A stretch of DNA of 64,000 nucleotides from assembly GCF_003023845.1 (NCBI RefSeq), contig NZ_PYFT01000001.1, positions 992,001 through 1,056,000 of the forward strand. The letters run 5' to 3'. The position numbers were made by a program, and so were the translations under genes. The DNA comes from Adhaeribacter arboris (GTDB lineage Bacteria; Bacteroidota; Bacteroidia; Cytophagales; Hymenobacteraceae). Positions within the stretch are counted from its first letter, which is position 1. Every line of letters starts with the position of its first letter. Below, piece by piece: positions 6,081-21,277 of the stretch. The notes under the pieces were generated by a model that was not told the DNA's origin, did no database searches, and worked only from the letters and a program-made list of their open reading frames with translations.

Positions 6081-7415
6081 CTATGGTCTATAATCAACCA
6101 CTAAGCGTTCAATGGCTGATTGTACCTTTTCGAAGTTAAAAGTTGCCAGCGTTTGGTTCATCATTTCCCGTATTTGATCATTTTGTAAATTCCCCATGCT
6201 GCCTTCGTGGGTGTGATTTACTTGGCGCGGCGGATTAAAATTACCTTCTTCTATGGCTAGACCTACGTTACGGTAGGCTTCCCGGAAAGGCACTCCGTTC
6301 AGCACTTCGTTATTTACCATTTCCACGCTAAACAAGTATTTATATTTTTCCTCGTCCAGAATATTTTCTTTCACAATCAGGTTCTGCAGCATAAAAGTGG
6401 CCATTTGCAAACAAGATTTTAACTCTTGAAAAGCAGGTAAAAAACTTTCTTTTACCAATTGCAGATCGCGGTGGTAACCCGAAGGTAAGTTGGTGATAAT
6501 TAACGCAATTTCGTTCGGTAAACCTTGTAATTTGTTGCACTTGGCCCGCATAATTTCAAATACATCCGGATTTTTTTTGTGCGGCATTATGCTGGAACCG
6601 GTAGTTACATTATCGGGTAAACTTAAAAAACTAAAATTCTGATTCAGGTAGAGGCAAACATCCATCGCCATTTTACCTAAAGTTGCGGCTAAGGAGGCAA
6701 GGGCAGAGGCAACATTGCGCTCGGTTTTACCGCGACCCATTTGGGCATAAACCACGTTGTAGTTTAAAGAGTCAAAGCCTAATAAATCGGTGGTGAGTTG
6801 CCGGTTTAACGGAAAAGAAGAACCATAGCCCGCGGCCGAACCTAAGGGATTTTTATTGCTAATCCGGTAAGCAGCTTGCAGCATGAGTAAGTCATCTACT
6901 AAACTTTCGGCGTAAGCCCCAAACCACAATCCAAACGACGACGGCATAGCCACCTGCAAGTGCGTGTAGCCGGGTAAAAGTTTATCTTTATGTTCCTCGC
7001 TTAAAGCCAATAATTGTTCGAACAGTTCTTGTACCGCTACAACTGTTTTCTGAATCTCGCTCCGGATAAATAATTTTAAGTCGAGTAATACCTGGTCGTT
7101 GCGTGAACGGCCGCTATGAATTTTTTTTCCGGCCTCACCTAAACGTTGAGTGAGCAATAATTCTACTTGGGAGTGAACATCTTCTACGCCCGGTTCTATC
7201 CTAAATTGACCTGCCTTTATTTCACGGTAAATTACTTTTAACTCCTTTTGCAAAAGCTTTAATTCGGAAGTTTGTAGTAAACCGATGCTTTCTAACATTT
7301 GAGTGTGAGCCAAAGAACCTAATACATCAAATTCCGCGAGCAGCACGTCCAATTCACGATCTCGACCTACGGTAAATTTCTCCACTTCTTCTTTCGTAGC
7401 GGTATTTTTTGCCAA
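6081..7415 (-). CDS. argH: Argininosuccinate lyase
   Basis: Splits argininosuccinate into arginine and fumarate, the last step of arginine synthesis, in the cytoplasm. The fumarase/aspartase superfamily signature GSSIMPHKKNPD is intact, as are AGYGSSFPLNR and the GRSRNDQ substrate loop. At 444 residues it matches the short Bacteroidota form. The usual N-terminus MKLWQK is encoded by ATG at 7423-7421, but that frame is one base out of register: the shift falls in a run of six A (complement of 7405-7410), and seven A would restore one continuous protein. As the sequence stands, the in-frame start is TTG at 7415-7413. Either a sequencing slip, a true mutation, or frameshifting during expression. 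It is the last gene of the arg operon, 160 bases after argE. Confidence 0.93.
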   Translation of the reverse strand: MAKNTATKEEVEKFTVGRDRELDVLLAEFDVLGSLAHTQMLESIGLLQTSELKLLQKELKVIYREIKAGQFRIEPGVEDVHSQVELLLTQRLGEAGKKIHSGRSRNDQVLLDLKLFIRSEIQKTVVAVQELFEQLLALSEEHKDKLLPGYTHLQVAMPSSFGLWFGAYAESLVDDLLMLQAAYRISNKNPLGSAAGYGSSFPLNRQLTTDLLGFDSLNYNVVYAQMGRGKTERNVASALASLAATLGKMAMDVCLYLNQNFSFLSLPDNVTTGSSIMPHKKNPDVFEIMRAKCNKLQGLPNEIALIITNLPSGYHRDLQLVKESFLPAFQELKSCLQMATFMLQNLIVKENILDEEKYKYLFSVEMVNNEVLNGVPFREAYRNVGLAIEEGNFNPPRQVNHTHEGSMGNLQNDQIREMMNQTLATFNFEKVQSAIERLVVDYRP

Positions 7416-7430
7416 AGCTTCATAAATTTT

Positions 7431-7585
7431 TGGTATCAGGTATTTAGTATCAAGTATCAGGTAATAAGAACTAGCCAGTAAGATTATACTTAATTTGGTA
7501 AGGATTAATCAAATTTCATCTAAAATTAGTAATTCAGATCTAAGATAATTCCCCTGCCCAAAATCTTGCTACTTGCTACTGATAC
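7431..7585. repeat. Inverted low-complexity tracts flanking the argE-argH gap
   Basis: At 7432-7463 the words GTATCAGGTA, TAGTATCAA and GTATCAGGTAA repeat; at 7566-7585 the sequence CTACTTGCTACTGATAC is their approximate inverted counterpart and includes the end of argE. About 100 bases of AT-rich sequence lie between. Function unknown. Confidence 0.4.
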
Positions 7586-8643
7586 AGTATTTTATTTAAT
7601 ATTTTAATGTATAGTTCAATTCCTTCTTTAATTTCAGCAAGGTAAATAAATTCGTCGGCCGTATGCGAACGGGCAGAATCACCCGGTCCCAGCTTAAGCG
7701 AAGGTATCGAAAGTAAAGCCTGGTCGGAGGTAGTAGGGGAACCGTAGGTGTTCCGGCCAAGGGCAATACCCGCCTGCACAATCGGGGCATCTTTACTCAT
7801 GCGCGACGGTTTTAAACGAACTGACCGAGGCATTACCTCGCAGGATACCTGAGATTTAATAATTTCTACAACTTCTTCGTTGGTGTACGCATCGGTAACC
7901 CGCACATCCACGGTAAATTCGCATTGGTCGGGTACTACGTTGTGCTGGGTACCCGCTTTAATTATAGTTACACTCATTTTTACCGGCCCCAAATATTCCG
8001 ATTCCTTGGGGAACCGGTAATTTTGAAACCATTGAATATCCGGTAAGGCTTTATAAATGGCATTTTCCCCTTCTTCGCGGGCAGCGTGCCCGGACTTTCC
8101 ATGAACTAGGCAATCTAAAACAAGTAAACCTTTTTCGGCAATGGCCAAATGCATTTGCGTAGGTTCTCCCACTATAGCAAACTCTACAGAACCAAATTCC
8201 GGAAAAATTAATTCTAAGCCATTTTTACCGGAAATTTCTTCTTCGGCAGTAGCGGCAAAAAGCAAATTGTAGCTTAAATTTTCCTGCGGATAAAAGTGCA
8301 GAAAAGTAGCCAAAAGTGATACCAGGCTGCCCCCGGCATCGTTGCTACCCAAGCCAAATAGTTTACTATCTTCTTCCAGAGGAGAAAAGGGATCTTTGGT
8401 CCAGCCTTGGTTGGGTTTTACCGTATCGTGGTGCGAATTAAGCAGAATAGTTGGTTTTTCGGGGCTATAGTGCTTGTTAAAAGCCCATACATTATTTAGC
8501 TCGCGGTAAGTTTCAATGCCGTGTTTCTGAAGAAATACATGCATAATTTCGGCCGTATGTTCTTCCTGCCGGCTGAAAGATTCTGTGGCTATTAAAGATT
8601 TTAACAATACTACAGCTTGCTGATATAATTCTTCTACCGGCAT
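7576..8643 (-). CDS. argE: N-acyl-ornithine/N-acyl-citrulline deacylase (M20 family)
   Basis: A 355-residue zinc-dependent M20 deacylase, normal length for the Bacteroidota ArgE. Metal and catalytic motifs are present: NSHHDTVKPN with the first His and following Asp, GSNDAGGS with the bridging Asp, TAEEEISG with the general-base Glu and a metal Glu, and GEPT with the next metal ligand. In operons with an ArgF'-type carbamoyltransferase the real substrate should be N-acylcitrulline, removing the acyl group after carbamoylation rather than from ornithine. It sits between proC and argH on the same strand. The ATG at 8643 is the clear start. Acetyl versus succinyl preference cannot be read from this sequence alone; see argF'. 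Confidence 0.88.
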   Translation of the reverse strand: MPVEELYQQAVVLLKSLIATESFSRQEEHTAEIMHVFLQKHGIETYRELNNVWAFNKHYSPEKPTILLNSHHDTVKPNQGWTKDPFSPLEEDSKLFGLGSNDAGGSLVSLLATFLHFYPQENLSYNLLFAATAEEEISGKNGLELIFPEFGSVEFAIVGEPTQMHLAIAEKGLLVLDCLVHGKSGHAAREEGENAIYKALPDIQWFQNYRFPKESEYLGPVKMSVTIIKAGTQHNVVPDQCEFTVDVRVTDAYTNEEVVEIIKSQVSCEVMPRSVRLKPSRMSKDAPIVQAGIALGRNTYGSPTTSDQALLSIPSLKLGPGDSARSHTADEFIYLAEIKEGIELYIKILNKILYQ

Positions 8644-8756
8644 AGTTTATCTACGAGCTAATTTGAACAGCTTCATCTGCAAGATTTGTAAGTAATCTTA
8701 AACTTTCGGGCATTTTATTCTGACATCAAGAACATCTGGCAACTAACAACTAACAA

Positions 8757-9581
8757 CTAATTAGACTTAGGATATAAATCTCCGGCCTTCTGCGCCGATA
8801 ACCGGATACCTTTAATCATAGCGGAGCTAAAACCCGCGTGTTCCATTTCGTTTAATCCGGCGATGGTGCAGCCCTTGGGAGAAGTTACTTTATCAATTTC
8901 GCCTTCCGGATGGTTACCAGTTGCCAGCAATAAAGCGGCGGCACCTTTGGCGGTTTGGGCCGCCATGTGCAAAGCTTCAGCTGCATGAAAACCTATTTCG
9001 GTACCTCCTTGGGAAGCAGCCCGGATAGAACGCAGAAAAAAAGCAATACCGCAGGCACATAAAGCCGTAGCGGAAGTCATGAGTTCTTCGTGAATTTCAA
9101 TAGTTTCGCCTACCGTATCAAACATGTCCTTAACCAAAGCTAAATTTTCTTTGCTGGCATTAATCGAAGCCAGGCAAGTCATGGATTCCTGAATGGCAAT
9201 TGCCGTATTCGGCATGGCTCGCACTACTTGTACCTGCTTGCCCAAGCGATTGGTTATATCGATTACACTTACTCCCGAAACTACGGAAATTAATAAATGA
9301 TCCTCGGTTTTTACTTCGTCTCTAATAGTATCTAAAAGGCCATCTAGTTGCTGGGGCAACACCGCGATAACGGCAATTTTAGCTTCCCGCACTGCTAACG
9401 AATTGTTATCGGTAACCTGGAAACCTTGCTCAGTTAAATCTTGTAATGCCCGTAAATTTCGGCGGGTAATGGTAATCTGGTTGGTCTGGTATTTTCCGGA
9501 TTTTACCAAACCCTTAGCCAGAGCAACTCCCATGTTGCCGCCACCTAAAATGGCAATAGTATTCTGATTTGTAGTTGTCAT
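8757..9581 (-). CDS. proC: Pyrroline-5-carboxylate reductase
   Basis: The 274-residue protein begins with an NAD(P)H-binding Rossmann motif (AILGGGNMGVALAKGL, residues about 10-25) and keeps the ProC features VVRAMPNTAIAI and a C-terminal TSPKGCTIAGL region, where the Pro/Lys-Gly-Cys-Thr segment binds substrate. It reduces pyrroline-5-carboxylate to proline in the cytoplasm. It lies inside the arg operon between argB and argE, 140 bases after argB and 113 before argE, so proline formation is likely co-transcribed with arginine synthesis. Both routes start at glutamate. No proA or proB is in the window. A few bases downstream (8735-8757) is a TAACAAC repeat of the type seen in other gaps here. 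Confidence 0.88.
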   Translation of the reverse strand: MTTTNQNTIAILGGGNMGVALAKGLVKSGKYQTNQITITRRNLRALQDLTEQGFQVTDNNSLAVREAKIAVIAVLPQQLDGLLDTIRDEVKTEDHLLISVVSGVSVIDITNRLGKQVQVVRAMPNTAIAIQESMTCLASINASKENLALVKDMFDTVGETIEIHEELMTSATALCACGIAFFLRSIRAASQGGTEIGFHAAEALHMAAQTAKGAAALLLATGNHPEGEIDKVTSPKGCTIAGLNEMEHAGFSSAMIKGIRLSAQKAGDLYPKSN

Positions 9582-9721
9582 AATAGTAGAATATTTACGT
9601 AAGCAATAGTTTTTTAGAAAAATACCGAAGGCTTAAAAACTGACTTACCTAGATCTAATGAAGATTATTTAATTTGATTTTTACGCGCTCATTTCAGCGA
9701 ATCCTGTAAAACTATATTAAG

Positions 9722-10516
9722 TTATAAATGTAAAACAGTGCCCGCTGGTTTTTGTTGGTTGGTAATAATTAGCATATCATCAGCGTGAGAAATATAAACA
9801 GCTTTCACGCCCTGTTGTAACGCTTGCAAGGCATTATCCATTTTAGGAATCATACCCTGGGCAATTACTCCATTTTCGCGTAACTCCGGGTAAGTACTGG
9901 GTGATATTTCCGGAATTAAACTTTCTTCATCATTCACATCGCGCAATACGCCTTTTTTCTCAAAACAATAGATTAACCGCACATTATAATAAGGGGCTAA
10001 AGCTACCGCCAAGGTAGAAGCGATGGTATCGGCGTTGGTATTGAGTAAATTTCCGGTAGTATCGTGGGTAATGGGGGCAAATACCGGGGTAAATCCATTT
10101 TGCAGCAGCATTTGCACGTTCTCCACATTTATTTGGGAGGCTTCAATATCGCCAACAAAACCATAATCAATAGCACCAACCTGCCTCTTCTTCGCCGGAA
10201 TACAATTACCATCGGCTCCGGTTAAACCAATCGCATTGCATTGCGCCGCCTGCAACTGCGCCACAATGTTCTTGTTAATCAAGCCGGCATATACCATAAT
10301 AACCACTTTCAAAGAATTCGCATCCGTAATCCGGCGGCCCTCTATTAATTGCGGCTGAATACCTAAAGATTTACTTATTTCCGTCGCAATTTTACCACCG
10401 CCGTGAATGAGGATTTTAGAACCTGGGATTTGGGCAAAATCATTTAAAAATTGCTTTAGTTTACCGGCATCATCAATAATATTCCCCCCAATTTTAACGA
10501 TATACACTGTTTCCAT
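9722..10516 (-). CDS. argB: N-acetylglutamate (or N-succinylglutamate) kinase
   Basis: Phosphorylates the gamma-carboxyl of an N-acylglutamate. The 264-residue amino-acid-kinase fold protein has the KIGGNIID start (phosphate-binding Lys8), the glycine-rich IHGGGKIATE loop, and NTNADTIASTLA near residue 160. This length is typical. It is followed by proC and preceded by argF' with only an 8-base gap, so it is translated from the same message. Annotated as acetylglutamate kinase by family; if the pathway uses succinylated intermediates, as ArgF' suggests, its substrate would be N-succinylglutamate. Confidence 0.92.
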   Translation of the reverse strand: METVYIVKIGGNIIDDAGKLKQFLNDFAQIPGSKILIHGGGKIATEISKSLGIQPQLIEGRRITDANSLKVVIMVYAGLINKNIVAQLQAAQCNAIGLTGADGNCIPAKKRQVGAIDYGFVGDIEASQINVENVQMLLQNGFTPVFAPITHDTTGNLLNTNADTIASTLAVALAPYYNVRLIYCFEKKGVLRDVNDEESLIPEISPSTYPELRENGVIAQGMIPKMDNALQALQQGVKAVYISHADDMLIITNQQKPAGTVLHL

Positions 10517-10524
10517 TAGCCTAA

Positions 10525-11478
10525 TTAAAAATTAGCTTCTAAGATTCTTTTTAAAACTACCTGGGCAGCGTACACCCGGTTGGCAGCTTCCGGAATAACC
10601 AAAGAATTTGGTCCGTCCAGTATTTCGCTGGAAAGCTCCAGGTCCCGGCGTACCGGCAAGCAGTGCATTACTTTCCCTTGATTGGTAATTCTTAAACGTT
10701 CGTTCGTAAGCAACCAACCTGAATCAGTAGTTAAAATTTTTCCGTAATCGTGGTAAGCCGACCAGTTCTTCACATAAATAAAATCGGCATTTTGCAAAGC
10801 CTCATCTTGGTTATAAGTTATGGTAGCGCCTTCGGTAAAGTTTTCGGCCAATTCGTAACCATGAGGGTGCGTAATTACAAAATCCACATCGGCTTGGCAC
10901 ATCCATTCGGCAAAGGAATTAGGTACGGCTTGGGGCAAAGGTTTTACGTGGGGCGCCCAGGTAAGCACTACTTTAGGGCGCGGTTTTGCAGTACTATGTT
11001 CGGTAATGGTAATTAAATCCGCCAGGCTCTGCAATGGGTGCCGGGTTCCCGATTCCAAACTTACCACCGGAATTTGCGCGAATTTGATAAATTTTTGTAA
11101 GATGTCCTCGCTGTAATCTTCGTCGCGGTTTTGTAAACCAGGGAAGGAGCGAATCCCCAATACGTCAAAATATTGTCCCATTACGGCAGCAGCTTCCCGG
11201 ATATGTTCCACGGTAGTACCATTCATTATTACACCATCGCGGGTTTCTAAAGCCCAACCTTCCTTATCCATGTTCATCACAATGACTTCCATCCCCAAAT
11301 TTTGTCCTGCTTTTTGGGAGCTTAACCGGGTGCGGAGGCTGGGATTTAAAAAAATTAATCCTAAAGTTTTGTTTTTACCTAATTGCGAAAAAGCATAAGG
11401 ATTTTTTTTAAGATCCAGCGTTTCGTTTACCAAAGCGGATACATTGGTTACGTCGGCTACCGAAGTGAAATTTCTCAT
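10525..11478 (-). CDS. argF': N-acylornithine carbamoyltransferase (ArgF' type, probably N-succinylornithine)
   Basis: A 317-residue carbamoyltransferase that transfers carbamoyl phosphate to an N-acylated ornithine, not free ornithine. The carbamoyl-phosphate loop is SLRTR (47-51), followed by HPLQSLAD and HCLPVRR. The overall sequence matches Bacteroides N-succinylornithine transcarbamylase closely (TWAPHVKPLPQAVPNSFAEWM). The residue known to decide acyl specificity, Pro90 in the Bacteroides enzyme and Glu92 in the Xanthomonas N-acetyl enzyme, is Val90 here (GTTVEHI). Published mutagenesis of the Xanthomonas enzyme found that replacing that Glu by Pro, Ser, Ala or Val switches it to succinylornithine, so succinyl is favoured. 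Overlaps argD by four bases (ATGA). Confidence 0.9.
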   Translation of the reverse strand: MRNFTSVADVTNVSALVNETLDLKKNPYAFSQLGKNKTLGLIFLNPSLRTRLSSQKAGQNLGMEVIVMNMDKEGWALETRDGVIMNGTTVEHIREAAAVMGQYFDVLGIRSFPGLQNRDEDYSEDILQKFIKFAQIPVVSLESGTRHPLQSLADLITITEHSTAKPRPKVVLTWAPHVKPLPQAVPNSFAEWMCQADVDFVITHPHGYELAENFTEGATITYNQDEALQNADFIYVKNWSAYHDYGKILTTDSGWLLTNERLRITNQGKVMHCLPVRRDLELSSEILDGPNSLVIPEAANRVYAAQVVLKRILEANF

Positions 11479-12617
11479 AGTGCGTAGGTTTTAGCTAGTA
11501 CCGCCTGAAAAGCTTCCAGGAAAATGTCTGCCTCTTGCTTTTGCAGGTTTAAAGCCGGTAATATACGGATGGTATTTTTATTTGAAGAAGAACCCAGGAA
11601 AATATGATATTCTTCGAGCAGTTGCTTGCGGGTAGAGGCGGCATTATCGGGTAATTCTACCCCAATCATTAAGCCCTGGCCTCGAACTTCCGTAATGCCG
11701 TCCATTTTAATTAAATTATCCATCAGGTAATTACCCATCGCGGTAGCGTTAGCGAGTAAATTTTCTTCTTTAATCACATCCAATACCGCAATTGCAGCGG
11801 CGCAGGCCAGGTAATTACCGCCAAAAGTAGTGCCCAGCATACCATGTTTTGCCTGGAATTTCGGGTGTATTAACACGCCGGCCACCGGAAATCCATTCCC
11901 CATACCTTTGGCTACGGTAATGATATCGGCGGCTACGTCGCTATGCTGATGGGCGAAAAATTTACCGGAACGTCCGTAACCCGATTGAATTTCATCTAAT
12001 ATCAGAACTGCATTGTGCTCATCGCAGAAGGAACGTAAGGCCTTTAAAAACACCGGACTTGGAATGTTAACGCCGCCCACTCCTTGAATTCCTTCGATAA
12101 TTACCGCGCAAATTTCTTTTGGATTTATTAAGTTATGCAGGGCATCTACATCATTAAAAGGTAAAAACGTTACCTCATGGTTGGCATTTAGCGGCGATAG
12201 AATAGAAGGGTCGGGAGTAGCGGCTACCGCGGCCGAAGTCCGGCCATGAAAGGCTTTAGTAAAAGCTAGCACTTTTTTACGGCCGTTGTAAAATGATGCC
12301 ACTTTCAAAGCATTTTCATTCGCTTCGGCTCCCGAGTTTATTAAAAATAAATTATAGTCGGGGTAGCCACAAATAGCCCCTAACTTTTCGGCCAATTCCT
12401 CCTGTTGCGGAATTTTAACGGAATTAGAATAAAAACCTATCTGGGCAAGTTGCTCGGTGATTTTCTGCACGTAGTGCGGATGGCTATGGCCAATCGAAAT
12501 AACGGCGTGGCCTCCGTATAAATCTAAATATTTGGTACCCGTTCCATCCCAAAGATAAGAACCTTGAGCTTTCACCGGAGTTATATTAAATAGCGGATAT
12601 ACGTCGAAAAGATTCAT
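11475..12617 (-). CDS. argD: N-acylornithine aminotransferase
   Basis: A PLP-dependent class-III aminotransferase of 380 residues that makes N-acylornithine from the semialdehyde. The PLP lysine is Lys237 in TVAKGMGNGFPVAGV, and the upstream LDEIQSGYGRSGKFF carries the cofactor Asp. NSGAEANENALKVA is the phosphate-binding segment. It is translationally coupled to argF' through a four-base overlap. Upstream it is separated from argC by 425 bases that hold a decayed gene and inverted repeats; the start ATG at 12617 lies just past the left inverted repeat, so its message must be transcribed through that insert. Normal length, no missing residues. Confidence 0.9.
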   Translation of the reverse strand: MNLFDVYPLFNITPVKAQGSYLWDGTGTKYLDLYGGHAVISIGHSHPHYVQKITEQLAQIGFYSNSVKIPQQEELAEKLGAICGYPDYNLFLINSGAEANENALKVASFYNGRKKVLAFTKAFHGRTSAAVAATPDPSILSPLNANHEVTFLPFNDVDALHNLINPKEICAVIIEGIQGVGGVNIPSPVFLKALRSFCDEHNAVLILDEIQSGYGRSGKFFAHQHSDVAADIITVAKGMGNGFPVAGVLIHPKFQAKHGMLGTTFGGNYLACAAAIAVLDVIKEENLLANATAMGNYLMDNLIKMDGITEVRGQGLMIGVELPDNAASTRKQLLEEYHIFLGSSSNKNTIRILPALNLQKQEADIFLEAFQAVLAKTYAL

Positions 12618-12622
12618 AGTTT

Positions 12623-13039: not shown

Positions 13040-13042
13040 TAC

Positions 13043-14029
13043 TTAAAACCCAGATGGTTTTAAGAGTAAACCGGTAGTTTCTGGTAACCCAAACAGCAGA
13101 TTCATGTTTTGCACCGCTTGGCCGGAAGCACCCTTCAACAGGTTATCAATCAGGCTAATGATGACTAATTGATCTTCGTGCTTTTCGAGGTAAAGCAGAC
13201 ATTTATTGGTATTTACTACTTGTTTCAAATGCGGATTTTTATCGATTACATGCGTGAAAGCTGCGTTCTGGTAAAAACGTCTGTAATTCTCGTAGGCTTC
13301 TTCCAAGGTCCAATTGCAGGTGAGATAGGTAGTACACAAGATACCACGGGTAAAGTTGCCGCGATAAGGCACAAAATTTATCCGCGGAACAAGGGAATTA
13401 TTTTGTAGAATACCCAAAGTCCGGCGCATTTCTTTTAAGTGCTGATGATTTAGTACCTTGTAAGCCGAAATATTGCTATCACGCCAACTAAAATGGCTGG
13501 TTTCAGAAAAGCTCTGGCCTGCCCCGGTAGAACCGGTAATACCGCTGATATGAATATCTGAACGTAATAAACCGGCTTCCGCTAAAGGCAATAAAGCCAA
13601 TTGCATAGCCGTAGCAAAACAGCCAGGGTTAGCAATGTGCTTGGCTTCCTTTATTTTATCCGACCCTAATTCGGGTAAGCCATAAATAAAAGTACGATCT
13701 TCAAATTCAGGATTTACTCGAAAGTCCTGGCTTAAATCAATAATCTTAATCTGCTCCGGAAAGGAATTCTGAGATAAAAACTTTTGCGAATCTCCGTGCC
13801 CCAAACATAGAAAGAGCACATCCATTTCACCATCCATATCCGTGCTGAAATTTAAATCAGTTTCTCCGGCTAAATCAGTGTGCACTTCGTGAATAGGTTT
13901 ACCGCCACTGCTATTACTATGGGCGAAAGTAATGGAAGTATTTGGATGGTGAAGGAGCAAACGCAGTAATTCACCACCAGTGTAACCAGCCGCGCCTACA
14001 ATACCTACCCGTATTTTCTGATTGTTCAT
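13043..14029 (-). CDS. argC: N-acyl-gamma-glutamyl-phosphate reductase
   Basis: NADPH-dependent reduction of the N-acylglutamyl phosphate made by ArgB. The 328-residue protein starts with a Rossmann motif (VGIVGAAGYTGGELLRLL) and has the catalytic Cys137 in NPGCFATA, a diagnostic ArgC signature. Only one base separates it from argG upstream. Downstream, the decayed four-helix gene separates it from argD. The second His of the catalytic region lies in the segment HSNSSGGKPIHEVH or in the later FVPYRGNFTRGI region typical of the family. A complete gene by length and motifs. Confidence 0.93.
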   Translation of the reverse strand: MNNQKIRVGIVGAAGYTGGELLRLLLHHPNTSITFAHSNSSGGKPIHEVHTDLAGETDLNFSTDMDGEMDVLFLCLGHGDSQKFLSQNSFPEQIKIIDLSQDFRVNPEFEDRTFIYGLPELGSDKIKEAKHIANPGCFATAMQLALLPLAEAGLLRSDIHISGITGSTGAGQSFSETSHFSWRDSNISAYKVLNHQHLKEMRRTLGILQNNSLVPRINFVPYRGNFTRGILCTTYLTCNWTLEEAYENYRRFYQNAAFTHVIDKNPHLKQVVNTNKCLLYLEKHEDQLVIISLIDNLLKGASGQAVQNMNLLFGLPETTGLLLKPSGF

Positions 14030-14030
14030 C

Positions 14031-15218
14031 TTAAAGACTGTTTACTTTATGATGAATCATGGTTTGGTTACCAAATATTTTAGAGAAACCTTTTACATCT
14101 TCACCGGTCCAAGCATTGTTCATTTCGCCGTATGAACCAAATTTAGCCGACATTAAGTCATGCTCCGAAGATATGCCAATTACGTGGTAGCGGTACGGCG
14201 CTAAAAACACGGTTACTTTACCCGTTGCGGTACTTTGGGTATCCGCCAGAAATTTTTCAATATTTCGCATTACTGGGTCCAGGAACTGCCCTTCGTGCAG
14301 TAAATTACCGTACCACACCGCTAGCTGATCTTTCCAGTACAATTGCCATTTGGTAAGCACGTGTTTTTCTAAAGCATGGTGCGCTTTAATGATTAAAATA
14401 GGAGCCGCCGCTTCAAAACCGACCCGGCCTTTAATACCAATGATGGTATCGCCCACGTGAATGTCGCGGCCAATACCAAAAGGAGCCGCTATTTCGGCTA
14501 ATTTCTGAATAGCCAGTACCGAATTTTCAAAAACCTCGTTGTTTATACCTTTTAATTCGCCGTTCACAAAAGTAAGAGTTACCTCTTCCGGATCTTGCTT
14601 GGTTACCTGGGTAGGCCAGGCTTCTTCGGGTAAATAACCGTAAGAAGTTAACGTTTCTGCTCCTCCCACCGAAGTACCCCATAAACCTTTATTAATCGAG
14701 TATTTAGCTTTTTCGAAATTCATCTCTACGCCATTACTTTTCAGATAATCGATTTCTTCCTGACGCGAAAGTTTATTATCCCGGATGGGGGTTAAAATTT
14801 GAACACCCGGAATTAAAATATTAAAAATCATATCGAAACGAACCTGGTCGTTGCCTGCCCCAGTACTGCCGTGCGCCACGTAATCGGCACCTACTTGCTT
14901 GCAATAACCAGCAATAGCCACGGCCTGCGATACCCGCTCCGCACTAACCGATAAAGGATAGGTGTTATTTTTTAATACATTCCCAAAAATCAGGTATTTA
15001 ATGCAAGACTCGTAATAATTATCGGTTTCGTCGAGTACCACAAATGATTCAACGCCTAAGGCATAGGCTCTTCTTTCAATTTCCTTTAATTCTGCTTCGT
15101 TAAAGCCACCCGTATTTACAATGGCGGCGTGTATCTCCAGATTCAGGGTCTCGGCTAAATATTTTACGCAATAGGAGGTATCTAAACCGCCGCTGAAAGC
15201 TAAAACTACTTTTTTCAT
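14031..15218 (-). CDS. argG: Argininosuccinate synthase
   Basis: Joins citrulline and aspartate with ATP. The 395-residue protein has the PP-loop SGGLDTS (residues 9-15), the citrulline/aspartate binding stretch GSTGAGNDQVRFD and the SINKGLWGTSVGG segment typical of the family. It is the second structural gene of the operon, 113 bases after the GNAT gene, and a perfect 10-bp hairpin lies in that gap. Only one base separates its stop from argC. Complete and of normal length for the Bacteroidota form. Confidence 0.94.
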   Translation of the reverse strand: MKKVVLAFSGGLDTSYCVKYLAETLNLEIHAAIVNTGGFNEAELKEIERRAYALGVESFVVLDETDNYYESCIKYLIFGNVLKNNTYPLSVSAERVSQAVAIAGYCKQVGADYVAHGSTGAGNDQVRFDMIFNILIPGVQILTPIRDNKLSRQEEIDYLKSNGVEMNFEKAKYSINKGLWGTSVGGAETLTSYGYLPEEAWPTQVTKQDPEEVTLTFVNGELKGINNEVFENSVLAIQKLAEIAAPFGIGRDIHVGDTIIGIKGRVGFEAAAPILIIKAHHALEKHVLTKWQLYWKDQLAVWYGNLLHEGQFLDPVMRNIEKFLADTQSTATGKVTVFLAPYRYHVIGISSEHDLMSAKFGSYGEMNNAWTGEDVKGFSKIFGNQTMIHHKVNSL

Positions 15219-15292
15219 TCGTGTTATTTTGTTGTTAGTCAGAGTTAGAGGTATAAACTAAAATTATTTAAGTTAAAGAGAGCTAATGCGAC

Positions 15293-15317
15293 GAGAGCAG
15301 CTAAATCAGCTGCTCTC
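15293..15317. other. Perfect 10-bp RNA hairpin between the GNAT gene and argG
   Basis: GAGAGCAGCT (15293-15302), loop of five, AGCTGCTCTC (15308-15317). On the plus strand it is followed by TTGCG and six T, but transcription here runs leftward, where no T-run follows. It could be an mRNA-stabilizing or partial-termination element that sets different levels of the acyltransferase and the downstream arg enzymes. Confidence 0.55.
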
Positions 15318-15331
15318 TTGCGTTTTTTAGA

Positions 15332-15988
15332 TTAAATATCCGTTGAGGAGTCTTCTATATCGCTGAGTAAATTTTTCGGCTTGCGTTCTTTTTCCTGCGC
15401 CGGATCGTAAAGCATAGCGGTGCACAAACAGTTTTTACGCTCCTTCATCGTTAAAATTTCAAAATTTACGCAACTGCGGCAACCTTTCCAGAATTCTTCG
15501 TCATCGGTTAGTTCGGAATAGGTAACCGGCCGGTAACCCAGGTCCGAATTTATTTTCATTACCGCCAAACCGGTTGTCAAGCCAAATATTTTAGCTTCCG
15601 GGTATTTCCGACGGGAAAGGGCAAAAACTTCTTGCTTGATCCTTTTGGCTAAACCTTCTTTCCGAAATTGGGGAGCTACAATTAAACCGGAATTAGCCAC
15701 GTATTCGCCGTGTCCCCAGGTTTCAATATAACAAAAGCCTGCCCACTCCCCATCTTTGCTGAGTGCAACAACGGCTTTTCCTTCCAATATTTTTAGTTTG
15801 ATGTATTCGGGAGATCGTTTGGCAATACCGGTGCCCCGTGATTTAGCCGAAGCCTCCATTTCGTCGCAGATAGTTTGGGCCCAAACGGTATCTTCGGCGG
15901 TGGCTACTTTTATTATAAACTGATCGTCTGGCCCAGAAAGATTATTAACCTGAGGGACATCAGTTTTTTTATCTTCAATCATTATCAT
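15332..15988 (-). CDS. GNAT acyltransferase, probable N-acylglutamate synthase
   Basis: First structural gene of the arg operon. The 218-residue protein has a GNAT core at about 24-160 with the acetyl-CoA loop in IVAPQFRKEGLAKRIKQ (R-K-E-G-L-A). The operon has no argA or argJ, so this protein is the natural candidate for the first step, acylation of glutamate; homologues at this position in other Bacteroidota have been proposed for it. That role is inference. The C-terminal extension is unusual: four cysteines, Cys170, Cys173, Cys187 and Cys189, form a CxxC...CxC pattern that may bind a metal. ATG at 15988 is used; Met at codon 3 is an alternative. It is preceded by a 40-codon leader and an attenuator-like hairpin. 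Confidence 0.8.
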   Translation of the reverse strand: MIMIEDKKTDVPQVNNLSGPDDQFIIKVATAEDTVWAQTICDEMEASAKSRGTGIAKRSPEYIKLKILEGKAVVALSKDGEWAGFCYIETWGHGEYVANSGLIVAPQFRKEGLAKRIKQEVFALSRRKYPEAKIFGLTTGLAVMKINSDLGYRPVTYSELTDDEEFWKGCRSCVNFEILTMKERKNCLCTAMLYDPAQEKERKPKNLLSDIEDSSTDI

Positions 15989-16061
15989 GGTGATTTAAAA
16001 AGAATTAAAAATGAAAAATCCTGCTTAAAGATTTAAAATTTGTACAATAAATTTAGGATTG

Positions 16062-16088
16062 AAAAAGGGCTTACCACGTAAGTTACCC
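16062..16088 (-). terminator. Attenuator-like hairpin in the arg operon leader
   Basis: Read leftward: GGG, bulge TAA, CTTAC, loop GTG, GTAAG, CCC, TTTTT. This resembles an intrinsic terminator and starts eight bases after the stop of the 40-codon leader frame and about 75 bases before the GNAT gene. The segment CGTAAG inside the leader (complement of about 16103-16108) can pair with CTTACG of the terminator and would then block it. Confidence 0.55.
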
Positions 16089-16096
16089 AGAACAGA

Positions 16097-16219
16097 TTAC
16101 GCCCTTACGGGGAAATCCTGTCTACAAGCAGGCCTAAATAATGGAGACGCAACAACCACCGCTACCGGAAGGGTAGGCAGCGTAGAAGTGGCGAGCGTGT
16201 AAGAATAATATTTCTCCAT
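16097..16219 (-). CDS. 40-residue leader peptide with three Arg codons near its end (candidate)
   Basis: The frame opens with ATG at 16219-16217, starting MEKYYSYTLATSTLP and ending PACRQDFPVRA with TAA at 16099-16097. It begins only about ten bases after the expected transcription start of the promoter at 16235-16264, and ends just before an attenuator-like hairpin. Arg29 (AGG), Arg33 (AGA) and Arg39 (AGG) lie in the last twelve codons, where a stalled ribosome could influence the hairpins. The middle is rich in Val and Ala (VAVVVA). No known protein family was recognised. The leader role is inference from layout; it could also be a chance frame in a structured RNA. Confidence 0.55.
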   Translation of the reverse strand: MEKYYSYTLATSTLPTLPVAVVVASPLFRPACRQDFPVRA

Positions 16220-16234
16220 TTTTTTAATTCGATG

Positions 16235-16264
16235 CAAATGTAATTAAAATACTAAAATTGCAAA
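16235..16264 (-). promoter_or_regulatory. Bacteroidota-type promoter of the arg operon
   Basis: On the minus strand TTTG (complement of 16261-16264) is followed after 18 bases by TACATTTG (complement of 16235-16242). This matches the Bacteroidota consensus TTTG-N(17-23)-TAnnTTTG at every defined base. The start of transcription would be near 16228, just upstream of the leader frame. Confidence 0.75.
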
Positions 16265-16589
16265 GTTTTGGTTCGAAATTGTTTGTAAATTTATTATTAA
16301 GTTATCTATAATAACGAAGGCTTTAGTAACAATTTTCTTGCCTGATTTTATGTCTTTTTAGTAAAAGTTAAAACAACATTATTATTCTAATTTTTGTCTG
16401 TAAAAGCCTCATAATAAAATACTTAATTGTAAAACGGTATCTAAGAACTCTTTTTGCATTGTTCGCTTAAATTCCGTGTTTATTCCCCTCTAATAGTTTG
16501 GTTACTTTATTAATTATAATATTAAAAGGTAAAAGCTTTAATTTGGCGGTCAAAAATTTAATGCCGGATCTCTACCGGTTTTATTAAGT
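16265..16589. other. AT-rich divergent region upstream of arg operon and tyrA
   Basis: Beyond the arg promoter no further gene is seen. The region should hold the tyrA promoter; a poor match TTACTTTATT lies near 16503 but no good upstream box accompanies it. Confidence 0.35.
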
Positions 16590-17441
16590 ATGAAACTTTG
16601 TATTATAGGAATTGGCTTACTCGGGGGGTCGTTTGCTTTAGGTTTAAAAGAAATCTTACCTGATTTAACGGTAGTAGGAGTAGATAATAATCCGGAGCAC
16701 GCGCAAAAAGCCATTGAACTTAAAATTGTAGAGCAAATTTTATCAATGGATATAGCCGTGGCGGAATCAAACTTAATTGTTTTAGCCACGCCGGTAAATG
16801 CCATTATATCTTTGCTGCCTCGGGTTTTGGATTTGGTATCCACCTCCGCGGTGGTGATTGATTTGGGTTCGACTAAAGAACTGATTTGCGCGGCGGTGCA
16901 GAACCATCCGAAAAGAAATCAATTTGTGGCAGTACATCCCATTGCGGGTACCGAATATTCAGGACCGGAAGCGGCTTTTACTACTTTGCTTAAAGAAAAA
17001 ACCATGATTATCTGCGAGCAGGAAAAAAGCCATCCTACCGCTGTAACCTTAATAGAAGATTTGTGCCGGAAATTGGAAATGCGTATTAGTTACATGGATG
17101 CTGCTTCGCATGATTTGCACTTAGCGTACGTTTCGCATCTCAGCCACATTAGTTCTTTTGCGCTTGGAATTACGGTATTGGAAAAAGAGAAAAATGAACA
17201 AAATATTTTTGATATGGCAGGCAGTGGTTTTTCCTCCACGGTACGATTGGCAAAAAGTTCGCCGGATATGTGGGCGCCCATTTTTACCCAAAACGGCAAA
17301 AACATTTCCGAAGCTCTGAGTAGTTATATCGAAATACTAAAGCATTTTAAAAATACTATTGACAACCAGGACGAAAAAAGCAGCTATGCGCTCATGCAGG
17401 AAGCTAATGAAATCCGCCGGATTCTGCAGGGGATTAAATAA
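16590..17441 (+). CDS. tyrA: Prephenate dehydrogenase
   Basis: Oxidative decarboxylation of prephenate to 4-hydroxyphenylpyruvate in tyrosine synthesis. The 283-residue protein starts with a dinucleotide-binding motif (IIGIGLLGGSFALGL, Gly7, Gly9, Gly12), and keeps VAVHPIAGTEYSG with the catalytic His, and LAYVSHLSHISSFALG with the prephenate-binding residues. It has no fused chorismate mutase or ACT domain, consistent with its length. It stands alone; no other aromatic-pathway gene is adjacent. It is divergent from the arg operon and convergent with the Rieske gene. The ATG at 16590 is the obvious start because the Rossmann strand begins at once. Confidence 0.9.
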   Translation: MKLCIIGIGLLGGSFALGLKEILPDLTVVGVDNNPEHAQKAIELKIVEQILSMDIAVAESNLIVLATPVNAIISLLPRVLDLVSTSAVVIDLGSTKELICAAVQNHPKRNQFVAVHPIAGTEYSGPEAAFTTLLKEKTMIICEQEKSHPTAVTLIEDLCRKLEMRISYMDAASHDLHLAYVSHLSHISSFALGITVLEKEKNEQNIFDMAGSGFSSTVRLAKSSPDMWAPIFTQNGKNISEALSSYIEILKHFKNTIDNQDEKSSYALMQEANEIRRILQGIK

Positions 17442-17564
17442 GTTTAGAAGTTGTCAGGTTCAAAAATTGGATAGTTTCAAGGGTAAGGATTACTTGTATA
17501 AAGCGGCAAATACTTGTTTACAATCCATAAACTTTTAAATGTTTACATCCTACAACTTCTAAAC
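17442..17564. repeat. 13-bp inverted repeat between convergent tyrA and Rieske genes
   Basis: GTTTAGAAGTTGT (17442-17454) and ACAACTTCTAAAC (17552-17564) are perfect reverse complements about 97 bases apart, starting directly after the tyrA stop codon and ending ten bases before the end of the Rieske gene. Spacing is too wide for an ordinary terminator. It belongs to the set of paired tracts described elsewhere in the window. Confidence 0.6.
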
Positions 17565-17574
17565 AACTTACCAT

Positions 17575-18006
17575 CTACTCAAAAATCCGGAGCATAGTGC
17601 CCGTTAAAGAAGTTTTATACTGCTTGAGTGCGGTTGCGGCTGGCCCGTTTACTACTTTACCATCTAAGGCAAATTTGGAACCGTGTACCGGGCAATAGAA
17701 CTGGTTATTCGGAGATTCAAAGGTTATTTGCCCTCCTTGGTGCGTACAAACGGAAGCAACAGCAATATAATTTCCCGCGCTCGTTTTGGCTACGATTACT
17801 TCGTTGGTAACCAAGTGACCACCATTCGTTTGCAGGGCAGCGTTGGCCGGAGCATTTAAGTCTAAAGTAAAATCTTTTTTGTTGGAGGTGCCCGGGTTAT
17901 TGGGAGAAGGGTCATCTTCTTTTTTAGAACAGCCACCCATGCAAGCCGCAAAAACTACCGAGGCGGCCCCCGAACCTAATAAAGCCAGAAATTCTTTTCT
18001 TTCCAT
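17575..18006 (-). CDS. Rieske [2Fe-2S] protein, exported, probably a lipoprotein
   Basis: The 143-residue protein carries both Rieske cluster-binding motifs: CTHQGG (Cys87, His89) and CPVHGS (Cys105, His108), followed by GKVVNGPA, typical of the small soluble arsenite-oxidase/ubiquinol type fold. The N-terminus MERKEFLALLGSGAASVVFA resembles a Tat-like or lipoprotein signal with candidate lipid cysteines Cys22 and Cys26, then a Ser/Pro/Asn linker to about residue 45. It would act as a periplasmic or membrane-tethered electron carrier. No oxidase partner gene is adjacent, so its redox partner is unknown. Confidence 0.88.
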   Translation of the reverse strand: MERKEFLALLGSGAASVVFAACMGGCSKKEDDPSPNNPGTSNKKDFTLDLNAPANAALQTNGGHLVTNEVIVAKTSAGNYIAVASVCTHQGGQITFESPNNQFYCPVHGSKFALDGKVVNGPAATALKQYKTSLTGTMLRIFE

Positions 18007-18434
18007 AACTGATTCATATATTTAAAAAAAGTAAATAGCGCTTCTGCTGAATATGATCTTTAGCCCGCCTTATTTTATTGGCTATAATGAATTTTGAGTA
18101 TATTGTTTAAACAGGCAATATTTTGGTACCAGCACGGAGAAAACTTAGGGATAGTTGCTTGTAGTTGAAATAATTCTTAGCCAGAATTATATTGGGTATA
18201 ATGCTACTTAGATAAGGTTATAATCCTAAAAATAGAGTAGTAACTGAATTATAAAATCCTCTTATCTGTTTCTATAATAGTGGCTTCTTGTTAAATAAAT
18301 CAGAAAAAATACCGTTACTAGCTTAGGCTTTTTTCCAGATACTTAAGCCAGGAAAGAGATAATCTAAATATTGTTACTTAGTTTTGAGTTATTTTAAAAA
18401 GTCTTTTATTTACCTGTATTCAGATTTAACTACC
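18007..18434. other. AT-rich intergenic region, no gene seen
   Basis: About 430 bases between the divergent Rieske gene and the small lipoprotein gene. No repeat or coding signal was recognised; promoters for both neighbours are expected here. An in-frame upstream start at 18384 would extend the small protein by 17 residues, but this gives no better signal peptide. Confidence 0.35.
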
Positions 18435-18659
18435 ATGTTCTTCCCCAACCGGCTGGGATTATTTCTTGTTGTTTGTTTTTTATTTTTTGGTTGCCGACCG
18501 GCTTGTCATATTGCTTCCTGCGATGTACGCAAAGTACACCACCACGGCGGTAAAATTTATCGGGGTCAGCCCATCTGGAAAAGACAAAACCCGCATATTG
18601 GCCAAGGAATACCCCGGAATATAAAGGAGAATCCCCAACACAAACGGAAGAAGCAATAA
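18435..18659 (+). CDS. Small lipoprotein of unknown function
   Basis: From ATG at 18435 the frame gives 74 residues: a short positive start, the hydrophobic stretch LGLFLVVCFLFFGC with a lipoprotein-type cysteine, then a basic, His/Cys-containing tail (ACHIASCDVRKVHHHGGKIY, later QNPHIGQ). Small Bacteroidota lipoproteins with a similar 'C-x-V-R-x-V-H...YRG...W-x-x-Q-N-P-H' pattern are known to me only as hypothetical proteins. The gene ends 80 bases before gyrA on the same strand. The Cys/His content could bind metal, but nothing proves it. A longer start at 18384 is possible. Confidence 0.6.
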   Translation: MFFPNRLGLFLVVCFLFFGCRPACHIASCDVRKVHHHGGKIYRGQPIWKRQNPHIGQGIPRNIKENPQHKRKKQ

Positions 18660-18739
18660 GAAAACTAGACAAAAACCTTAAATTTTCTGTAACTTGCCGG
18701 CCACGGTTTCTTACTAGAATACTACCATTTTAACGAAAA

Positions 18740-21277
18740 ATGACAGAAGGCGAAAGAATAATACCAATAAATATTGAAGATGAAATGCGGGGAGCCTACA
18801 TCGACTACTCCATGTCGGTAATTGTTTCCCGGGCTTTACCCGATGTACGCGATGGCTTGAAACCGGTACATCGCCGCGTGTTATACGGCATGTCGGAATT
18901 AGGGGTAACGTATAATAAAGCTTATAAAAAATCCGCCAGGATTGTTGGCGAAGTATTAGGTAAATACCACCCGCACGGCGATTCTTCGGTGTACGATACC
19001 ATGGTGCGGATGGCCCAGGATTGGTCCTTACGTTACCCTTTAGTAGATGGCCAAGGTAACTTTGGTTCCATCGACGGCGATTTCCCGGCAGCGATGCGGT
19101 ATACAGAAGCTCGGTTAAAGCGGATTGCGGACGAACTTCTGGGGGACTTAGATAAAAACACCGTAGATTTTATTCCTAATTTTGACGATTCTTTAAAGGA
19201 GCCGAGCGTGATGCCGGCCAAATTACCCAATTTACTGGTAAACGGTACTTCCGGCATTGCGGTGGGTATGGCTACTAACATGGCTCCGCACAATTTAAAC
19301 GAAGTAGTGAATGGCATTATCGCCTATATCGATAATCATGAAATTACTATTGCGGAGTTAATGCAGCACATTACCGCTCCCGATTTTCCTACGGGCGGTA
19401 CAATTTACGGTTATGAAGGTGTTCGGGCCGCTTATGAAACCGGAAGAGGGCGCGTAATAGTACGGGCGAAAGCTACCTTCGAAACCACTCCCTCCGGGAA
19501 AGAACAAATTGTGGTTTCAGAGATTCCTTACATGGTAAATAAAGCGGCTATGATTGAAAAAACGGCCGCTTTAATTAACGAAAAGAAAATAGAAGGTATT
19601 TCGGACTTGCGCGATGAATCGGACCGCGATGGCTTACGCGTGGTTTACGACCTGAAACGCGATGCCATGCCCAATGTAGTTCTGAATAACCTCTATAAAT
19701 ACACGCAATTACAGTCTTCCTTTGGCGTAAATAATGTGGCTCTCGTTAACGGGCGTCCTCTAACGCTTAATCTGAAAGAATTAATTCGCTATTTTGTGGA
19801 ACACCGCCACGAAGTAGTCATTCGCCGGACAGAGTTTGAATTAGGGGAAGCCAGAAAGCGGGCCCATATTCTGGAAGGCTTGCTTATTGCGCTCGACCAT
19901 CTGGATGAGGTAATTAATTTGATTCGTTCGTCGCGCGACCCGGACGTGGCTCGCGTTGGTTTGATGGAACGTTTCCAATTATCTGAAATCCAAGCAAGAG
20001 CTATTCTGGATATGCGGTTGCAGCGATTAACCGGTCTGGAACGAGATAGACTTACGAAAGAGTACGAAGAAATTAAGCAGTTAATTACCCGTTTAGAAGA
20101 AATTCTGGCCAGCGAAGAACTGCGCATGCAAATAATCAAAGACGAATTAACTGAAATTCGGGATCGGTACGGAGATCCGCGCCGCACCAACGTGGAAATG
20201 TCATCGAGCGATTTCTCGATGGAAGATATGATTCCGGATGAGAGCATGGTAATTACCATTTCACACGAAGGTTACATTAAACGGACGGCTTTAACCGAAT
20301 ACCGTAGCCAGAGTCGGGGAGGAGTAGGTTCCCGGGGAGTAGCTGCTTCCAAGCAAGATGATTTTACGGAGCATTTATTTATTGCCAATACCCATAATTA
20401 TATGTTGCTTTTCACCGAATCCGGTAAGGTATTCTGGTTGAAAGTTTATGAAATTCCGGAAGGTAGTAAAACTGCCAAAGGTCGTGCTATTCAAAACCTG
20501 ATTAATATTGAAAAAGAAGATAAGGTACGCGCCGTAATTAACGTGCACGATTTAAAAAATCCGGATTATATACTCAACAATTTCCTGATTTTCTGTACGG
20601 AGCAAGGTACCATTAAAAAAACTCCTTTGGAAGCTTATTCCCGTCCTCGTTTAAACGGAATAAATGCGATTACCATTAACGAAGGCGACCGTTTATTAGA
20701 TGTACGCTTAACCAATGGTTCTAACGATATTGTGCTGGCGCTTAAATCTGGTCGGGCGGTACGCTTTAACGAAGATAAAGTTCGTTCCATGGGCCGGAAT
20801 GCGGCCGGAGTAAGAGGAGTAACCTTAGCCAACGAAGCAGACAAAGTAGTAGGAATGGTTTGTTTGAGCGATCCGAATATGAACTTGCTGGTAGTTTCGG
20901 AGAAAGGCTTTGGCAAACGCTCACCGCTGGAAGAATACCGGATTACCAACCGGGGTGGAAAAGGCGTTAAAACCCTGAATATTACCCCCAAAACCGGCCA
21001 ATTAGTAGCAATTCACGGCGTAACCGACACCGATGATTTAATGATTATTAATCGCTCCGGTATTACCATCCGTTTGCGAGTAAGCGACTTGCGGGTTATT
21101 GGTCGGGCTACGCAAGGAGTTCGTTTAATTAAAATCAACGAAGGCGATGAAATTTCGTCGGTAGCCAAAATTGAATACGAAGATAAAACCGAAATCGTCT
21201 TAAATCAGTCGGAATTACCCGCCGATGAATCTCTCAACCCCGATCTGACGGATCCGGACTTAATCAACGAAAACTAA
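18740..21277 (+). CDS. gyrA: DNA gyrase subunit A
   Basis: Cleaves and rejoins DNA in the A2B2 gyrase that introduces negative supercoils. The 845-residue protein has the winged-helix/tower start ([23 protein letters not shown]), catalytic Tyr121 in AMRYTEARL, and the quinolone-resistance region [15 protein letters not shown] with Ser and Asp at the usual sensitive positions. The C-terminal six-bladed DNA-wrapping domain runs from about residue 500; the GyrA box is present in a variant form, [10 protein letters not shown], rather than QRRGGKG. The end is acidic ([16 protein letters not shown]), as is common. Followed 41 bases later by a TPR protein, a pairing frequent in Cytophagales. Confidence 0.97.

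Follow-up and report, generated by a model that had tools for sequence, protein, structure and literature searches.

A putative arginine-sensing leader peptide ahead of the GNAT-argG operon in Adhaeribacter arboris and other Bacteroidota

In Adhaeribacter arboris, an operon for arginine synthesis is preceded by a promoter, a short open reading frame that ends in Arg codons, and a hairpin, which raises the question of whether this short frame senses arginine on behalf of the genes behind it. The window analyzed here is a stretch of 64,000 nucleotides (contig NZ_PYFT01000001.1, positions 992,001 to 1,056,000), and all positions refer to it. The operon is read on the minus strand, and its genes were named mainly by profile matches, as follows.

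15332..15988, minus strand: GNAT-family acetyltransferase, the first structural gene of the arg operon (Pfam PF00583, over cut-off)
14031..15218, minus strand: argG, argininosuccinate synthase (NCBIfam TIGR00032, 255 bits; cut-off 268)
13043..14029, minus strand: argC (NCBIfam TIGR01850, over cut-off)
11475..12617, minus strand: argD-type aminotransferase (NCBIfam TIGR00707, 355 bits; cut-off 410)
10525..11478, minus strand: N-acetylornithine carbamoyltransferase-like, argF' (NCBIfam NF003384, 265 bits; cut-off 288)
9722..10516, minus strand: argB, acetylglutamate kinase (NCBIfam TIGR00761, over cut-off)
8757..9581, minus strand: proC (NCBIfam TIGR00112, over cut-off)
7576..8643, minus strand: ArgE/DapE-type deacylase (NCBIfam TIGR01910, 157 bits; cut-off 218)
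6081..7415, minus strand: open reading frame at the end of the codirectional arg run, which we take from its sequence to be argH-like

Between argC and argD, the minus strand also carries a 54-codon frame (12805-12969) for a protein of the 23S rRNA-intervening-sequence type (PF05635).

The region between the promoter and the GNAT gene contains the following elements.

16261..16264, minus strand: -33 element TTTG of a Bacteroidota-type promoter (TTT(G/T), with an identical 18-base spacing in all seven loci of the genus)
16235..16242, minus strand: -7 element TACATTTG, of the form TAnnTTTG (TAC(A/T)TTTG in all seven loci of the genus)
16097..16219, minus strand: leader peptide gene of 40 codons plus TAA, product MEKYYSYTLATSTLPTLPVAVVVASPLFRPACRQDFPVRA (46 to 95% identity in six of the seven other genomes of the genus)
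16133..16135, minus strand: Arg codon 29, AGG, 12 codons before the stop (Arg in 4/7 genus sequences)
16121..16123, minus strand: Arg codon 33, AGA, 8 codons before the stop (Arg in 6/7 genus sequences; at the second Arg peak among leaders)
16103..16105, minus strand: Arg codon 39, AGG, penultimate (Arg in 7/7 genus sequences and in 84 of 109 leaders)
16097..16102, minus strand: GCGTAA, the last codon plus stop, a candidate antiterminator strand suggested by the genus alignment, with its partner TTACGT at 16081-16076
16067..16088, minus strand: hairpin GGGTAACTTACGTGGTAAGCCC with the loop C[UUACGUG]G, a candidate terminator (the loop fits a conserved motif; three of five flanking positions pair)
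16062..16066, minus strand: T5 tract directly after the hairpin

The elements that an earlier note had described from this DNA were all present. The spacer between TTTG (16264-16261) and TACATTTG (16242-16235) is 18 bases long, and the promoter is followed by the 40-codon frame, with its ATG at 16219 and its TAA at 16099-16097. Three Arg codons (AGG, AGA, and AGG at codons 29, 33, and 39) lie among the last twelve, the hairpin and its T5 tract (16088-16062) begin after eight further bases (16096-16089), and CGTAAG (16109-16104) is complementary to CTTACG (16082-16077). TAnnTTTG is the -7 box of sigma-A according to the accessible part of a Bacteroidota transcriptome paper (PMC9723704), and transcription would be expected to start near 16229-16228. 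The leader and the GNAT gene are 108 nt apart.

Taken alone, the window is barely above chance, and the comparison across relatives decides. The fold of the leader had a z score of -1.38 against shuffles and that of the leader end one of -0.29; the hairpin alone (-6.1 kcal/mol) had a z score of -0.65 and was absent from a simple terminator scan of positions 8000 to 20000. A search of the 64-kb window with Rfam, T-box included, gave nothing at the gathering threshold, and the leader peptide had no Pfam match at an E value of 0.1. The possibility that this genome carries the leader twice was considered and rejected: three other places resembled it (E values of 0.8 to 3.1), each had an internal stop, and one looked by eye like a repeat-rich gene. 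Such ordinary folding scores in a single window are compatible with a chance frame that merely happens to lie ahead of the operon and has no function.

A GNAT match was found in 148 of 150 genomes of the family (A. arboris included) and, with a GNAT profile, in 310 of 390 genomes of the order and in 133 of 395 genomes of the GTDB class, presumably Bacteroidia; the remaining 262 class genomes lay outside the leader comparison. Upstream regions were read from 90 of the 148 family genomes, from 60 of the 310 order genomes (none of the same family), from 40 of the 133 class genomes (none of the same order), and from 79 of 80 loci of named species, one (L293) being dropped because upstream sequence was lacking. 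These four sets overlap in a few genomes, and after removal of near-duplicates, 159 of the 269 regions were kept for statistics.

Within the genus, the promoter TTT(G/T)-N18-TAC(A/T)TTTG, the frame (37 to 40 codons), and the penultimate Arg were kept in all seven loci, that of the window among them; an eighth genome (78% complete) had no GNAT match. The other two Arg codons were less constant (six of seven sequences at position -8 and four of seven at position -12): one locus (L007) has Lys at codon 33, and three (L009 to L011) are without the first Arg codon. Within the genus, the conservation that the earlier note had proposed as a check was complete for the frame and the penultimate Arg and partial for the other two Arg codons.

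Farther out, a frame with at least three Arg codons among its last 12 was found in 71/90 family, 40/60 order, 30/40 class, and 65/79 named regions, by a rule slightly different from that of the pooled count given below. All 90 family regions had at least two, which is a weak criterion, and some of the named loci likewise had only two. No leader was recognized (fewer than two Arg codons in the best frame) in 6/60 order, 8/40 class, and 2/79 named regions. Named species with a leader include Adhaeribacter rhizoryzae, Pontibacter ramchanderi, Mucilaginibacter roseus, Chitinophaga filiformis, Pedobacter yulinensis, Cyclobacterium salsum, Belliella aquatica, and Sphingobacterium alimentarium. In the NCBI taxonomy, Adhaeribacter belongs to the Cytophagales and Chitinophaga and Mucilaginibacter to other classes of Bacteroidota, so that the operon has such a leader in genera of three NCBI classes (Adhaeribacter, Pontibacter, and Cyclobacterium; Chitinophaga; Mucilaginibacter and Pedobacter).

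The pooled rule asked for an upstream frame of 15 to 60 codons with at least three Arg codons among the last 12. It was satisfied by 114 of the 159 regions, compared to a mean of 18.6 (maximum, 31) in 20 dinucleotide shuffles. Selection for Arg codons also lets false frames through, as in region L234, which passes only by a short frame (-408 to -357) that lies where argR is. The reverse strand satisfied the pooled rule in 38 regions, above the shuffles, which indicates that real DNA is not quite shuffle-like. With at least four Arg codons, the count was 53 regions versus 3.5 (maximum, 9) in shuffles. No other amino acid showed a comparable excess among the 159 regions; Pro was mildly raised (36 versus 17.8; maximum, 24), as was Lys (28 versus 19.3; maximum, 25), the latter with 42 on the reverse strand.

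By the Arg rule, leaders could be picked in 109 regions. Their median length was 38 codons, and the median distance from leader end to GNAT match was 136 nt. Arg occupied the penultimate codon in 84 of them, compared to 25, 25, and 35 at codons -1, -3, and -4, a peak helped somewhat by the frame picker, which rewards Arg in the last four codons; a second peak lay at codons -8 (53 leaders) and -9 (37 leaders). The Arg codons were also of a particular kind. AGG and CGA made up 60% of those in leader ends versus 19% in the long open frames downstream, as counted in the same 65 named loci without de-duplication. In the window, AGG accounts for only 4 of 226 Arg codons in 13 coding sequences, yet for two of the three in the leader end. 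Within seven clades, 37 to 67% of single-base codon differences were synonymous, a share that was computed without a neutral baseline and includes four wrongly picked frames (L031, L061, L072, and L076); frames free of coding selection should show roughly a quarter, and the observed share was taken as a sign that the leader is under such selection. The excess over shuffles and the reverse strand, the synonymous share, the position of Arg, and the bias to rare codons together make a functionless chance frame practically negligible as an explanation. By sequence comparison, then, the frame, its Arg codons, and their position and rarity are established.

A different possibility is sensing by way of the peptide. 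The fungal arginine attenuator peptide, as a nascent chain, stalls the ribosome in the presence of free arginine, and a similar arrest here would fit the conservation of the leader peptide within genera, the penultimate Arg, and a last residue that is often Pro, Ala, Ile, or Val. In the other genera of the family, however, the peptides are of similar or shorter length and apparently unrelated, with ends such as TRSRR, VRYRP, FRLRP, NIRR, and LRRP, and between families they share, by eye, little except Arg, so that the peptide conservation across families looked for as a mark of fungal-type arrest was not seen. In addition, the preference for rare Arg codons suggests that the speed of decoding matters and not the chemistry of the peptide. 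We consider peptide sensing quite improbable.

A second type of leader, with 22 codons and the product MIRLSSIALLRRPxLVVRxMPA or variants of it, was observed in part of one family genus, g5 (L073, L074, L077 to L079, L081 to L083, L086, L087, L090, L093, and L094). Its stop lies inside a GCCAGCTTAAGAGCTGGC-like hairpin, its end is ~300 nt before GNAT, and the motif ACGAGTGTA recurs in part of these loci.

The usual repressor of arg genes is ArgR, a protein that binds arginine. Not one of the 390 order genomes had an ArgR (PF01316) match over the cut-off, a single match lying below it, and a search of the A. arboris genome gave no match, while the same search did find ArgR in Bacteroides ihuae and others, which served as a positive control. 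Among the 395 class genomes, 16 had ArgR over the cut-off, and 12 of these also had a GNAT match. In 11 of the 12, the ArgR domain shares contig and strand with the GNAT match, its end lying 299 to 377 nt before that match; the twelfth (G620) has a marginal ArgR match on another contig. Of the three argR-bearing regions that were read, L206 and L207 had no Arg leader by the rule (they account for two of the eight class regions without a recognized leader), and L234 was the false positive named above. In the sampled loci, the site before GNAT holds either argR or the leader. This exchange describes the GNAT operons that were sampled and is not a complete census, as most class genomes have neither ArgR over the cut-off nor a GNAT match.

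Because of the excess of frames with Arg codons, the penultimate Arg, the rare codons, and the lack of ArgR over the cut-off in the order, the sensing of arginine by a translated leader is well supported at the level of sequence, and in the Cytophagales the leader seems to take over the role that ArgR has in other lineages. The arginine attenuator proposed in the earlier note holds up in this respect, i.e., as sensing through Arg codons; the specific switch that it had proposed, pairing of CGTAAG with CTTACG, was not supported.

The structures after the stop bear on this switch. RNA spanning 25 nt upstream and 75 nt downstream of the leader stop folded better than shuffles, with a mean z score of -1.34 (n = 109), and the comparison shows a structured RNA after the stop. 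A strict hairpin-plus-U terminator was found in 23 of the 109 leaders (shuffle mean, 6.5; maximum, 13), i.e., 3.5 times the shuffle mean. The genus of A. arboris carries a hairpin and a T-rich tract, and in its seven sequences the hairpin had 93.9% of cells paired and two co-varying pairs, a level reached in 51 of 500 shuffles. For CGTAAG/CTTACG, a pairing that the earlier note had suggested checking for covariation, 83.3% of cells were paired in the same seven sequences, without a single double change and with 199 of 500 shuffles as high; three sequences break two of the six pairs, and a fourth breaks one. The alternative pairing GCGTAA/TTACGT reached 95.2% of cells with one co-varying pair, which is within the shuffle range (124/500; seven sequences). 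A further hairpin over the last leader codons was 98% paired but invariant and hence uninformative.

As read from alignments, other clades have the stop codon within a hairpin or next to one. In Chitinophaga, it lies in or beside a hairpin TGATAGCG...CGCTATC, and in genera of the A. arboris family it lies in or beside a nearly invariant hairpin, GGC-GCTAG-GCC or GGCC-CTA-GGCC. By eye, leaders of Chitinophagaceae (L275, L290, L299, L301, L310, L313, L253, L273, and others) have their stop codon inside a hairpin TGAYAGG...CCTRTCA that encloses a conserved GGACGA and in part CTGGCACTTGCC. The g6 and g3 loci have a hairpin flanked by T runs within the leader gene, e.g., CTGTTCTTCCCAGAACAG followed by TTTTTT. 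This hairpin precedes the last Arg codons and may act as a pause site or as a terminator that the translating ribosome keeps open.

As a strict U-run terminator is present in only 23 of 109 leaders, the output is perhaps not classical intrinsic termination everywhere, and it may differ between clades (intrinsic termination, Rho action, or other). It is possible, though not what we would expect, that the position of the ribosome on an Arg-sensing leader governs Rho access or RNA stability instead. The strong stop-codon hairpins of Chitinophagaceae, which by eye have no T run right behind them, would fit such an output, and there is a precedent in the speF leader of Salmonella, where orf34, with two consecutive Arg codons, is described in the accessible part of the paper as acting via Rho and RNase G (PMC6386406). 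The T-rich tract of the window and its genus argues against it, as do some Chitinophaga loci in which, by eye, the hairpin is followed by T-rich RNA, and the terminator-like structures in excess over shuffles.

The 6- and 7-mers enriched after the stop (CCTACG, TACGTGG, and TATGCGG) proved to be the loop of a hairpin. Defined by the loop C[YUAYGYR]G on a stem of five or more pairs in which one mismatch was tolerated, this hairpin was present in 40 of the 159 regions (66 of all 269) versus 0.2 (maximum, 1) in shuffles; in the same 159 regions, it occurred neither on the reverse strand nor in the 260 nt further upstream. It is found in several families (L144 to L146, L150 to L153, L155, L171, L174 to L176, L179, L180, L304, L308, and others) and, where a leader had been picked (28 cases), starts 1 to 18 nt after the stop in all but one. 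The median of 14.5 nt implies that a ribosome at the stop probably does not cover it in several clades. A search free of the stem, with a loop motif defined from the same regions, gave 44 occurrences, of which 40 had four or all five of the flanking positions paired; 20 rounds of shuffling gave 46 occurrences, and 3 of these reached four pairs or more. In an alignment of 39 of the 40 hairpins (that of L211, 99 nt after the stop, was left out), the stem changes freely while the loop is constant; the 74 cells with double changes, versus 21 in shuffles, are partly circular, as the rows were selected for loop and stem. The window has the loop and fails the stem rule with its three of five flanking pairs, while two relatives in the genus (L009 and L011) pass it. 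In a cmsearch of the window, the arg hairpin (13.1 bits; E value, 0.39) ranked third of four matches, below two chance ones.

Two explanations of the constant loop were rejected, the first of them as a general explanation. Pairing of the loop back to the leader scored 12.41 on average versus 12.19 (standard deviation, 0.30) in shuffles and was matched by 9 of 50 shuffle rounds, which is chance level. Mimicry of a tRNA-Arg anticodon was dropped on general tRNA rules, the middle base being U in 13 of 39 rows. An element dispersed over the genome was likewise rejected: in the window, the match at 50045-50065 (19.9 bits, above the arg hairpin) is inside a frame that by eye is sugar-kinase-like, and the genome of A. 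arboris gave three weak matches (E values, 0.45 to 2.6), two in open frames and one (E value, 2.0) between frames. In 24 genomes, picked partly for carrying the hairpin, there were 46 matches, 20 of them at the arg locus, with four genomes lacking one there; of the 26 elsewhere, 12 were examined, and 11 of these overlap open frames of at least 90 codons, the exception being one in L323.

A loop that is constant on a freely changing stem, far in excess of shuffles, mostly flanked by pairs even when no stem is asked for, and without excess complementarity to the leader speaks for a recognition site. The hairpin might be bound by a protein or by RNA polymerase in pausing or termination, with the leader adding ribosome control. 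That 119 of the 159 regions, the window included, have no such hairpin by the rule weighs against this, as do the matches away from the arg locus, which are not regular and lie mostly in open frames, those of A. arboris itself included. We regard a recognition site of this kind as rather unlikely.

We return to the reading that we prefer, a ribosome-mediated attenuator that senses arginyl-tRNA, to which we would assign, on the sequence comparisons above, a probability of roughly 0.8. Transcription would begin about ten bases before the leader gene, and a ribosome would translate the leader behind the polymerase. With arginine plentiful, the ribosome would pass the Arg codons and reach the stop, and the downstream hairpin would form and cut back expression of GNAT-argG-argCDF'B-proC-argE(-argH); in the window, the output would most likely be termination at the T5 tract near 16062. 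With arginine scarce, the ribosome would be held up at the rare Arg codons that precede the stop and leave the RNA around the stop codon uncovered, so that an alternative structure, in the window perhaps GCGTAA/TTACGT, could form, disrupt the hairpin, and let the operon be read. The start of transcription, the stalling, the antiterminator, the termination, and the direction of control are parts of this scheme that we infer. Several observations weigh against it: the ordinary folding scores of the window, the small share of leaders with a strict U-run terminator, the two candidate antiterminators (one without covariation, the other within its shuffle range), the distance of the conserved-loop hairpin from the stop, the regions in which no leader was recognized, and the false frame of L234. 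A wider version, in which an arginine attenuator stands at the place of argR across several orders of Bacteroidota and a partner (polymerase, ribosome, or protein) reads its constant loop, C[YUAYGYR]G, is more speculative, and we hold it to be doubtful.

In principle, this would be ribosome-mediated attenuation in a variant for arginine. As in the trp, his, thr, ilv, leu, and phe attenuators, a short leader has several codons for the amino acid of the operon near its stop, RNA hairpins follow just downstream, and the operon for that amino acid lies behind. It differs in that the amino acid is arginine and the leader stands before GNAT-argG in Bacteroidota. The loops of the trp and his attenuators are arbitrary; here, in part of the clades, the hairpin has a conserved loop. 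A survey by Vitreschak in 2004 reportedly covered branched-chain, his, thr, trp, and phe operons, some of them in Bacteroidetes. In the literature searched, which did not extend to the comparative surveys of Vitreschak (2004) and Lopatovskaya (2010), we found no arginine leader-peptide attenuator in Bacteroidota and no description of the C[YUAYGYR]G hairpin as an RNA element. The accessible part of a 2005 paper has arginine regulated at the RNA level by T-boxes and his, thr, and phe by attenuators (PMC1262725). That of the Bacteroidota transcriptome paper mentions strong clues that amino-acid operons are preceded by leader-peptide attenuators and suggests such attenuation for Flavobacterium psychrophilum, speaking of amino acids without naming them (PMC9723704).

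Leaders that sense arginine are known for other purposes. In Salmonella orf34, Arg codons pause ribosomes at low arginine, and the downstream RNA structure changes (PMC6386406), as is predicted here for a translated leader with Arg codons. According to the same accessible sections, orf34 differs in that it controls ornithine decarboxylase, responds also to ornithine, and has its two decisive Arg codons early (12 and 13). In Staphylococcus aureus, rare AGA and AGG codons of the rbfL upstream open reading frame sense arginine limitation (PMC13009471, accessible part); this frame has 8 codons, overlaps the ribosome site of the next gene, and reduces translation of that gene under arginine shortage, whereas the leader of the window ends well before its gene and belongs to arginine synthesis. 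As far as these partial sources go, neither the speF nor the rbfL leader serves arginine synthesis. ArgR control shares operon and position with the leader, in that argR lies just before GNAT in the 11 class genomes described above, and differs in being exerted by a protein repressor.

The leader offers a testable answer to the question of how arginine synthesis is controlled in bacteria in which ArgR was not found, such as the Cytophagales, and the sampled loci present a case of one type of regulator standing in for another, argR or a leader, at the site before GNAT. The hairpin with the conserved loop is a strongly supported RNA element. If the wider version is true, these operons would have an attenuator with a recognized loop rather than a passive terminator.
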